From Alphaproteobacteria bacterium (GTDB lineage: Bacteria > Pseudomonadota > Alphaproteobacteria > CAAHEQ01 > UBA3637), in contig SUUT01000002.1 of assembly GCA_015062385.1 (NCBI GenBank), forward strand, positions 83,059 to 147,058: 64,000 nucleotides of DNA. Direction: 5' to 3'. The position numbers were made by a program, and so were the translations under genes. Positions 23,346-47,932 of this stretch are shown piece after piece (position 1 is the stretch's first letter; every line of letters begins with the position of its first letter). The notes below the pieces were generated by a model. The model worked only from the letters and a program-made list of their open reading frames with translations. It was not told where the DNA came from and did no database searches.

Positions 23346-25559
23346 TTAATCTATAACACAAAGTGCAGGATAGGAATTTGTCGTATAAGTACCATCTATA
23401 TTGCCGAATTCCAGTCCTACCTGATATACTTCGCAAGATGTATATACTTTATCAAGCCAGTAAAAATCATCTCCAACTTTACCAAAGGCTTCCCATAATC
23501 CGGTTACAATTTTTGATATATTATCCTTAACATATGCGTTTGATCCAATTGCTTTATAATGACAATATCCCCATCGACCTAACCCGTCCATGCAATGCAT
23601 ATCATTTGAACCGGCAACTCGTCCGCCAATAGCTTCACAAAAACGATTAGCACTCCACCAAGTCATTTCTAAATTTGGAGTTCCATAAAAAGTTTTTGTT
23701 CCCGTCACTTCTCTGCCATAACCGTCATAGTGGGTCCAGTTGATAGTTGCTTGAATTGCATCATCTTTTGCTACACGACAAATTCCCGTATCAATAAAAG
23801 GTCCTTCAAATTCTATACCACAAGCATATCCCTTCTTTTGATAGCAATAATATCCGTATTTTCCGTCTTTGTTACAATCGGCATTTGTTGTGCAATATTC
23901 AACACATTCTTTTCCATTCCAACGTGTTCCGTCCAAGCAAGGTACACACACATTCATTTTTAAATCACAGGTTGGTTTTGTTTCATCTATACAATGAGTA
24001 TTATTTAAGCATTCGGAACACAAACCCGTATCGGCACAATATAAACCCATATCACAATCATCATTTGTTTCACAAGATGAACAAGTTCCGTTTTTACAAA
24101 TATTTTTACCAATTATTTCAGTGCAATCATCATGAGATAAACACAATACTTGTTCTTCAGGTTCAATCCCTTCAATAATCGCATCATCAACACATAAAGC
24201 ATAATATCCCTCTTCCAGAATTTCTCCATCTATATTTCCGTATTCCAAACCGATACCATATCCGGAACACTCATCAATAATATTAGAAAACCAATACCAA
24301 CCACCATTTAATGCGGTTTTTAATTTTGTTACAACTGTTGAAATATTACCATCTTGCCAAGCATTTGATCCGATATATTTTTTATGACAATAGCCCCAAC
24401 TTCCCACATTATCTGCACATTGAAAATCTGTTGTGGTCACTTGTCTTTTTCCAATGCTTTTACAAAAACGATTGGCACTATGCCAAGTCATTTCTAACTC
24501 CGGAACGGCATAAAAATTTGTTGTTCCATATGTTATTAAGCCTTTTGAGTCTGTTTTGTTCCATTTAACAGTTACTTTTTTCATATCATCTTCTGCAAAA
24601 TGGCATTCTCCTTTATCTTCACGAGGTCCATAAAATTCATATCCGGAACAAGCATATCCTAGTGCATTATAACAGTAATAACCTGTTCTGCCGTTTTTGT
24701 TACACTCCTCATTTGTTTTGCAAGGTAAAACACACCGTTTTCCATTCCATTTTTCTCCATTCGGACAAGGTTCACACGTACTTGTTTTTGTATCGCAATA
24801 AGGTTTAGAGGCATCTTTACAATCTGCATAACTTTGACACTCTACACATCCTTCCGCTGTTTCAATAGGTGTTTGACGTGGACATTGACATATGTTATCA
24901 ATCCATTCTTTGGGCGGATAACACCACTCACAATTGTCCCCAAATTCATATTCATGCCGACAAACACATCCGTATGTCCCATCATCTTTTTGTCGCCATG
25001 CCATTTTGTCCGGACAAGATTGTGGTTCACTGCTTGGATTGTCATCCGGCATATCCGAACCACCGCTTCCGCCATTTCCACCACTACTTCCCCCATCAAA
25101 GTGAGAACCGGATTCAACAGTCGGAGTTGCATTAAAGGAAAACACCATATTTGTTTTGCTGTTTGGGTTTCCGCACATTCTTGTTAAAATAGAAATACCC
25201 ATCTCATTTAAAATGCTTTCTCTTTGCAGGAGTTTTTCACAAACTTTATAAACCACTTTAAATGCTGTTACTTGATAATTACCATCAACGAGCTTGACCA
25301 TAGATTTTTTATCATCCGGTGTATATTCAGGTAGGGCAGATTTTAAAAACCGATTAACCTCCAATGCATGAGAAGCCCGAGAATCCGTTTGAGCCAATGT
25401 TTTAGCCTTGCCAAGAACATCTTGAATTTTACCGGATTGATAGGCTGTTAAGGCATATTGATACATACCGACACCGGCAACGGACAAAACGCCGATAATT
25501 GCCAATACACCTAGCATTTCTACCATACTCCGACCGGTTTCATTGATTTTGATTTGCAT
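23346..25559 (-). CDS. Type IV pilin-like surface protein with two tandem DGR-target-like C-terminal domains
   Basis: This 737-residue protein starts with a prepilin leader (ETG, then RSMVE with Glu at +5, then MLGVLAIIGVLSV). Residues 40-150 form a pilin-like globular part, 151-170 a Gly/Ser linker, and 180-280 a Cys-rich EGF-like region. Two related domains (about 283-458 and 560-735) each hold MTW(H/W)SANRFC, WGYCH, IGSNA and a final GLE(Y/F)GNIDG...ALCV. The last 24 residues of each match, without gaps, the peptide encoded by the DGR template repeat at 423-512 at its fixed positions (Tyr, Leu, Gly, Asn, Ala-Leu-Cys). This suggests a C-type-lectin-like fold, which is inference. Its first ~210 residues are close to those of the pilin at 46547-47932. 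A copy of the ~150-bp element is upstream. Confidence 0.8.
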   Translation of the reverse strand: MQIKINETGRSMVEMLGVLAIIGVLSVAGVGMYQYALTAYQSGKIQDVLGKAKTLAQTDSRASHALEVNRFLKSALPEYTPDDKKSMVKLVDGNYQVTAFKVVYKVCEKLLQRESILNEMGISILTRMCGNPNSKTNMVFSFNATPTVESGSHFDGGSSGGNGGSGGSDMPDDNPSSEPQSCPDKMAWRQKDDGTYGCVCRHEYEFGDNCEWCYPPKEWIDNICQCPRQTPIETAEGCVECQSYADCKDASKPYCDTKTSTCEPCPNGEKWNGKRCVLPCKTNEECNKNGRTGYYCYNALGYACSGYEFYGPREDKGECHFAEDDMKKVTVKWNKTDSKGLITYGTTNFYAVPELEMTWHSANRFCKSIGKRQVTTTDFQCADNVGSWGYCHKKYIGSNAWQDGNISTVVTKLKTALNGGWYWFSNIIDECSGYGIGLEYGNIDGEILEEGYYALCVDDAIIEGIEPEEQVLCLSHDDCTEIIGKNICKNGTCSSCETNDDCDMGLYCADTGLCSECLNNTHCIDETKPTCDLKMNVCVPCLDGTRWNGKECVEYCTTNADCNKDGKYGYYCYQKKGYACGIEFEGPFIDTGICRVAKDDAIQATINWTHYDGYGREVTGTKTFYGTPNLEMTWWSANRFCEAIGGRVAGSNDMHCMDGLGRWGYCHYKAIGSNAYVKDNISKIVTGLWEAFGKVGDDFYWLDKVYTSCEVYQVGLEFGNIDGTYTTNSYPALCVID

Positions 25560-46546: not shown

Positions 46547-47932
46547 CTACTCTGTTAAGCAATAATCCACAACCTTATGAAGTTTAAAATTCATACTGCC
46601 GCAGTTATTATCACATTCATTATCCCAAAATTGAATGGTTATATCTGCCAAGCCATTAAATGTAAAATATTTAATCGGTTGATTTCTTAATGCATTTGTT
46701 ACTTGTTTAGTTGTTCCAACATTATATCCCTCACCATTTCCCACAAAATCAGAATCTTTATTAATAATATATCCTAAATTTTTTGTACCCTCAAATACAT
46801 ATGTTGCAAAACCGACCCGCTTCGTCTTACAATTATAATAATGGTATCCATCAACCCATTCAAAATAATATGTCCCTTTTAGTTTACCTAAGTTATTTGT
46901 TGTAATACGGCACTCCCAAACAGAACTATTAATTCCGGTTGAAGCAATATCCATTTCAACCACATCTTCTGTTTTACAAACACATTCGCCATTTTGATTG
47001 GGTTCTAATTCATATTTTGATGTATCACAATAACACACACATGTTTCCCCATCCTGAATCTGTCCCGTTGGACAAGATGTTGCACACGGCGTACACATTT
47101 TTGTTATTGCATCCCAATGTATTTTATCTGTCGGACAAGATTCACACATATTGTTTGTTCCGCATACCGGAGTCGGATTAGCACAATCATCATTCGTTAA
47201 GCATTCCACACACTTTTCATCTTTCCAAATCGGAGAGAAATCCGGACAGCGACACATTACTTCATCTTCAAACCATTCTTTGGGAGGATAACATCGTTCA
47301 CAATTATCCCCGAACTCATATTCATGCCGACAAATACATCCGTATGTACCGTCTTCTTTTTGTCGCCATACCATTTTATCGGGGCAGGTTTCCGGTTCAA
47401 TATTTGGATTATCTATATCCGGCAGATTCGAACTCCCGCTTCCGCTATTTCCGCCCCCATTTCCTCCGCCAAAGTGAGAACCGGATTCAAATGTCGGTGT
47501 TGCATCAAAGGAAAATACCATGCTTGTTTTATTGTTTGGGTTTCCACACGTTTTTGTTAAAATTGAAATACCCATATCATTCAATATACCTTCCTTTTGA
47601 AAGAGCTTTTCACAAATTTTATGTGTCATCTTAAATGCCGTTACCTGATAATTGCCGTCAACCAATTTAACCATAGACTTTTTATCATCCGGCGTATATT
47701 CGGAAAGTGCTGACTTAATAAATCGATTGACTTCTAAGGCATGTGAAGCCCGAGAATCTGTTTGTGCCAATGTTTTGGCTTTTCCGAGAACATCCTGCAC
47801 TTTGCCGGCTTGATAAGCCGTTAACGCATATTGATAGGTTGCAACACCCCCAACGGATAATACCCCGATAATTGCCAGAACCCCCAGCATTTCCACCATT
47901 GAACGACCAAGTTCATTTATTTTAGTTTGCAT
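46547..47932 (-). CDS. Type IV pilin-like surface protein, same stalk, different C-terminal domain
   Basis: This 461-residue protein has a prepilin leader (ELG, then RSMVE with Glu at +5, then MLGVLAIIGVLSV). Its first ~210 residues are close to those of the 737-residue protein, including KIQDVLGKAKTLAQTDSRA-like and DGTYGC.CRHEYEFGDNC segments. A Gly/Ser linker (about 150-170) and Cys-rich region follow. The last 150 residues differ entirely: a domain with TYYFEWVDGYHYYNCKTKRVG and FWDNECDNNCGSMNF, with no match to the DGR template. It looks like one stalk carrying exchangeable heads. A copy of the ~150-bp element precedes it. Confidence 0.8.
   Translation of the reverse strand: MQTKINELGRSMVEMLGVLAIIGVLSVGGVATYQYALTAYQAGKVQDVLGKAKTLAQTDSRASHALEVNRFIKSALSEYTPDDKKSMVKLVDGNYQVTAFKMTHKICEKLFQKEGILNDMGISILTKTCGNPNNKTSMVFSFDATPTFESGSHFGGGNGGGNSGSGSSNLPDIDNPNIEPETCPDKMVWRQKEDGTYGCICRHEYEFGDNCERCYPPKEWFEDEVMCRCPDFSPIWKDEKCVECLTNDDCANPTPVCGTNNMCESCPTDKIHWDAITKMCTPCATSCPTGQIQDGETCVCYCDTSKYELEPNQNGECVCKTEDVVEMDIASTGINSSVWECRITTNNLGKLKGTYYFEWVDGYHYYNCKTKRVGFATYVFEGTKNLGYIINKDSDFVGNGEGYNVGTTKQVTNALRNQPIKYFTFNGLADITIQFWDNECDNNCGSMNFKLHKVVDYCLTE

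Follow-up and report, generated by a model that had tools for sequence, protein, structure and literature searches.

The window analysed here is a 64,000-nt stretch of contig C9 of G000, an alphaproteobacterial assembly of 1.8 Mb in 45 contigs that is 99% complete; among related uncultured Alphaproteobacteria, one record comes from water-buffalo rectum. On the minus strand of the window, positions 23346-25559 form an open reading frame, P0001, for a 737-aa protein that is predicted to be a modular type IV pilin-like protein with two C-terminal domains of the C-type-lectin type. Its neighbours on both sides are housekeeping genes, and it lies about 23 kb from the template repeat (TR) of a DGR cassette, which occupies the left edge of the window on the same strand. 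Read from the left, this cassette has the N-terminal part of a 437-aa DGR reverse transcriptase (RT; positions 1-395, RVT_1 E 5e-17), which runs on to the left of the window and is the sole RVT_1 match in G000. It is followed by the TR (about 410-507), with adenine-specific mismatches to VRs elsewhere in the genome, by the 137-aa DGR accessory protein Avd (629-1042) and by a 593-aa pilin-like protein (1024-2805), the first gene of the DGR operon, with a prepilin-type N-terminus (C9:85729-85848). Avd matches bAvd (PF22296) above its cutoff and the NCBIfam model DivGenRetAVD at E 1.5e-14, under that model's cutoff. With an RT, Avd, a TR and VRs that differ from the TR at adenines, the cassette is a DGR. 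The same order of pilin, Avd, TR and RT recurs in G008 and in G028, a genome of another genus.

VR-type matches to the TR were found in G000 at C9:80872, C6:5349, C10:3, C40:54319 and C24:22332 and, less strongly, at C1 and C11. For example, the VR at C9:80872 differs from the TR at 14 of 36 adenines and at 1 of 55 other positions (Fisher p 4e-6). The VR proteins are about 120-150 aa long and have secretion-type N-termini, and several of their genes (C11, C24, C40, C6) lie directly behind pilin-like genes. The proximity of pilin and separate VR genes in these cases, together with the fused form seen in P0001, suggests that pilins are also partners of the separate variable proteins. Compared with the TR, the VR closest to the RT (L005, C9:80872-80972) has a 3-base insertion, which keeps the reading frame. 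One VR contains a run of 10 Ns and two others meet contig ends (C6 L004, C10:1-58, C24:22332-22368), which would fit variation within the population, with assembly failing at variable sites. The interval from the VR gene to the RT contains several copies of short repeats (...HAGFSPASREEVAGMMSHYRDETPCRGTE; L002:15500-16000, L005:1900-2600).

The TR encodes the peptide YNVNLNNGNVNTNTRTNNNNALCL, which the preliminary description had aligned over 24 residues, with no gaps, to two sites in P0001. Both alignments were recovered, with exact coordinates: residue 434 begins at 24260 and residue 735 ends at 23355. The site at residues 712-735 (23355-23426, minus strand) scores 49 as a BLOSUM62 sum with 10/24 residues identical, and that at residues 434-457 (24189-24260, minus strand) scores 36 with 7/24; the next-best placement of the peptide on P0001 scores 11. 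The TR positions Y, V/I, L, G, N and A-L-C are kept as had been stated, the kept Asn being itself a TR Asn position. In 5000 shuffles of the TR peptide the best score averaged 16.6 and never exceeded 38, with 36 or more reached in 9 and 49 or more in none; when P0001 was shuffled instead, 36 was reached in 11 and 49 in none.

The two loops belong to larger units, namely lectin-type domain 1 at residues 288-460 (24180-24698, minus strand; placed by profile, alignment and tree) and domain 2 at residues 564-737 (23349-23870, minus strand), which are 47-50% identical to each other. The preliminary description had deferred a comparison with the true VR proteins until these were found. A profile derived from the true VR proteins, and not from the TR, matches both domains (i-E 4.2e-8 for domain 1 and 2.5e-11 for domain 2), at residues 348-402 and 611-678 and chiefly via the MTWWSANRFCEAIG region. 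In the opposite direction, tblastn with P0001 found VR-type genes via residues 607-659 (E 1.6e-4 to 3e-3). Because the VR-protein profile matches both domains, the loops form the ends of two domains that are homologous to DGR targets, and sequence comparison shows the P0001 domains and the DGR targets to be one domain family. The low complexity of the TR might favour chance or convergence in an Asn-rich, motif-like peptide as the source of the match, but P0001 has two such matches, each ending one of two homologous domains. With the shuffling results and a profile homology that extends beyond the 24-residue stretch, a chance match is extremely improbable.

It had also been proposed that the domains share the fold of DGR targets, and this agrees with the PDB profile matches, all of which are to C-type lectin folds. 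A profile of 60 sequences of the domain family, searched against the PDB at E up to 1, matched 56 chains, all 56 of the C-type lectin fold (CTLD), with a best E of 2.2e-6; a profile of 7 sequences gave 27 matches, again all CTLD-fold. A C-type lectin fold is thus supported for the P0001 domains at the level of profile similarity. AlphaFold2 models from four-sequence alignments had pLDDT of 36.6 (domain 2 of P0001) and 52.0 (a stand-alone VR protein), values too low for the models to be informative. Foldseek with the latter model (pLDDT 52.0) gave no match at E <= 0.001; the DGR variable protein TaqVP appeared at ranks 4-6 with E 3.5-4.2 and was given no weight.

Both loops were originally described as distinct from current VRs, and the counts agree: outside adenines, 22/39 positions mismatch the TR in domain 1 and 21/39 in domain 2. 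Nor does P0001 class as a current DGR target, with NNY codons at 8/14 (domain 1) and 9/14 (domain 2) and no A bias (p = 1 and 0.47). The same values bear on the idea that a second, unseen DGR still acts on P0001. More than one RT is carried by G019, a genome of the same family, but a single RVT_1 match in a 99% complete genome, together with these codon and base counts, makes a second DGR acting on P0001 very improbable.

The two loops also resemble each other more than diversified loops do. Domains 1 and 2 agree at 4/7 first TR-Asn positions with a framework identity of 46%; in pairs of diversified VRs whose frameworks are 40-60% identical, agreement averages 5% and reaches 1/7 at most. The loops of P0001 thus change in the same manner as the remainder of the domain. 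As no P0001 orthologue was identified, the case for purifying selection on the loops comes from the comparison of its two domains. With neither TR-like bases nor adenine-only change, and with a mutual similarity equal to that of the remaining domain, the loops most probably recognise a fixed ligand.

At its other end, P0001 has the leader MQIKINETG followed by RSMVEMLGVLAIIGVLSVAG, which by eye reads as a class III signal pattern with G-1 and E5. Pfam N_methyl scores 10.8 bits against a cutoff of 21.2 and, far under that cutoff, was the only domain match of P0001 in Pfam and NCBIfam. About 120 matches to P0001 are spread across G000, most of them to the prepilin-type N-terminus (MVEMLGVLAIIGVL) alone, and the places concerned in the window are 1024-2805, 23346-25559 and 46547-47932. 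Some 24 other loci in G000 match residues 1 to ~150-280 at 37-77% identity. The genome also encodes a prepilin peptidase (PF01478) and one T2SSF (PilC-type) assembly protein (PF00482), both over cutoff. About 10 paralogues have a common stem of 240-330 aa that is 64-77% identical and is followed by C-terminal modules that are wholly unlike, including the lectin type, a vWA-like module (by eye) and repeats, a pattern that, from the sequences, looks like module swapping.

Among the 58 genomes searched, the domain was present in 28, all from the window's own family; it was absent from all 24 genomes of other families that were searched, and a scan of viral contigs found no relative. Of 43 genomes of the family, 9 have RT homologues, which in 2 are of a prophage type. 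The layout of the diversified domain differs between genomes. It is encoded as a separate secreted protein in G000, G003, G010 and G028, and fused to a pilin in G026 and, with diversification judged by signature, in G004, G012 and partly G033. TRs adjoin the RT genes of five relatives, with the sequence SCNAYNVNLNNGNVNNNNRNNNNYAVCR in G026 and close variants of it. In G026, a 411-aa protein (L203) with a pilin signal and a C-terminal lectin domain carries a true VR, which differs from the TR at 14/32 adenines and at 6/70 other positions (p 8e-5), and the match to the TR continues past the stop codon. This gene classes as a current DGR target; the RT frame of G026 has an internal stop.

The largest set of fusions was seen in G004, a genome of the window's genus, where at least 16 pilin-fused genes have the AAY signature. 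At their TR-Asn codons, positions 1 and 2 are hypervariable and position 3 is C or T (NNY 131/140), with invariant codons between. Among 20 pilin-fused genes of this genome, 16 are VR-type, 15 of them with 0-5/29 non-A mismatches and L171 by inspection; L179, L182, L186 and L187 are not. Downstream of most of the VR-type genes stands a CCCCGCCTTTAA motif, which is also seen after the G000 TR. The pilin-fused genes of G012 have the same codon pattern (NNY 118/120) and G033 has a related one. For the G004 species the TR would be expected to end in about AYNVNLNNGNVNNNNRNNNNYALCE. A search of G004 with the TR predicted from its VRs gave 24 similar stretches (E at most 0.0014), the best at 85% identity, with no RT, and did not find the TR. 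As a matching RT and TR were looked for in G004 and G012 and not found, diversification in these two genomes is inferred from the signature.

The RT present in G012 and G019 was considered as the DGR of their own pilins and rejected, as it is part of a separate, near-identical element with its own target. This second DGR (L120 at G012:C4 and L122 at G019:C15), found in two genera, has another TR/VR type (CASWSASS...) and is probably a shared prophage. RT frames are broken by a stop near the end in G008 (L127) and mid-frame in G026 (L123); in G033 the RT (L121) is cut short, to a fragment that follows a pilin-lectin gene. G026 and G033 have kept VR-type genes despite the broken RT, a picture of repeated RT decay. 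Independent tandem pilin-lectin-lectin proteins occur in other genera (G013, G023 and G025), and their loops show conservation from species to species and across genera.

A tree of 60 domains was built from the 103 columns left after removal of the variable ones. The two P0001 domains are sisters on it, and fall within well-supported clades of 14 and 15 rows together with fused genes of G004 (95/84 and 97/87). Forcing P0001 together with the stand-alone DGR targets was rejected (p-AU 0.0045), and the distribution of VR and fixed states needs at least 5 changes. Two origins had been envisaged for the P0001 domains, as fixed descendants of a diversified ancestor or as the parent family of the targets. 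The first gains from their nesting in a mostly VR-type fused clade. We favour, with moderate confidence and not as a final answer, a sequence-based reading in which the forerunner of P0001 was a diversified pilin fusion rather than one of the present targets of G000. Taken as a whole, the domain family may predate the DGR.

The second origin, in which P0001-like pilins with fixed loops are ancestral and DGR templates were captured from them later, draws on the wider spread of the domain than of RT homologues among the relatives, and on the tandem loops kept across genera, which indicate that fixed forms are stable. Against it, most of the sampled G004 members of the P0001 clade are VR-type, the VR-type L171 branches first, at least 5 state changes are needed, and the tandem fixed forms of other genera stand elsewhere in the tree, so that P0001 is not their direct continuation. 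We regard an ancestral fixed family as rather unlikely, though it is the most serious of the alternatives. The stem paralogues, with their conserved N-terminal parts and unlike C-terminal modules, could also point to recombination among pilin paralogues as the sole source of the P0001 domains, with no DGR history. Module swapping would explain how a lectin module came to a pilin stem, but not the TR-type loop motif common with the targets, and it leaves the nesting among VR-type domains unexplained; a purely recombinational origin is accordingly a poor candidate.

The best explanation, to which we assign a probability of about 0.72, is that P0001 is a modular type IV pilin-like protein whose lectin loops are frozen and come from a once-diversified, pilin-fused ancestor. 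Its pilin stem would carry two tandem C-type-lectin-type binding domains, from a family that the DGRs of this bacterial family appear to diversify in fused or separate layout. The ancestor would once have been diversified and would then have lost the TR match and the downstream recognition sequence. By analogy with other modular pilins, P0001 may use a type IV filament or the cell surface to display its two lectin domains; we infer assembly into or at such a filament, and ligand binding. As a broader and tentative idea, which may well prove wrong, DGRs could generate pilus-lectin specificities that are repeatedly frozen, with useful variants losing the TR match and recognition sequence, duplicating in tandem and outliving the RT, P0001 being one such case.

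The case connects a DGR with display proteins that resemble type IV pilins, and the related genomes offer a natural series of one binding domain in diversified, decaying and fixed copies. A general question becomes testable in this way: can a hypermutated receptor become fixed with a specificity that is useful? G004, with its 24 stretches resembling the predicted TR, and genomes like it would contain unusually large families of variable pilins. The searchable literature yielded no account of a DGR target family that is present in many copies, consists of type IV pilin-lectin fusions and includes fixed members.

Modular pilins are known in which a binding module is grafted on a pilin stem and displayed by the filament (PMC8179133). 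As is predicted for P0001, S. sanguinis PilB, with a vWA module, and PilC, with a concanavalin-A-like lectin module, combine a class III signal, a stem and a C-terminal binding module (PMC8179133). The module of P0001, however, is of the C-type-lectin type, is present twice and belongs to a DGR-diversified family, and the assembly of P0001 into a filament is predicted. C-type lectin is not among the functions named for the 15 commonest modular-pilin architectures (PMC8179133). A link between pili, C-type lectin domains and DGRs has already been reported: the C-type lectin domain of a Bacteroides ovatus pilin tip shares homology with some of the proteins that DGRs target (PMC6199706), and DUF1566/Lcl_C DGR targets have been linked to putative pilins (PMC6642488). 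Unlike the DUF1566/Lcl_C targets, the domain family of P0001 touches Lcl_C weakly, with matches in 6 of 60 members and a best E of 0.0034. The B. ovatus pilin, unlike P0001, we take to be of the Bacteroidia fimbrial type and not a type IV pilin. The C-type lectin fold itself is well known in DGR targets (PMC8144416). As in the known targets of this fold, the variable residues of the present family lie at the C-terminal end of the domain and the TR has AAY codons. Those targets include Mtd of BPP-1, TvpA of Treponema, LdtA of Legionella and TaqVP of Thermus. P0001 differs from them in that it is not variable, and in that those of its relatives which are diversified carry type IV pilin stems as fusion partners.
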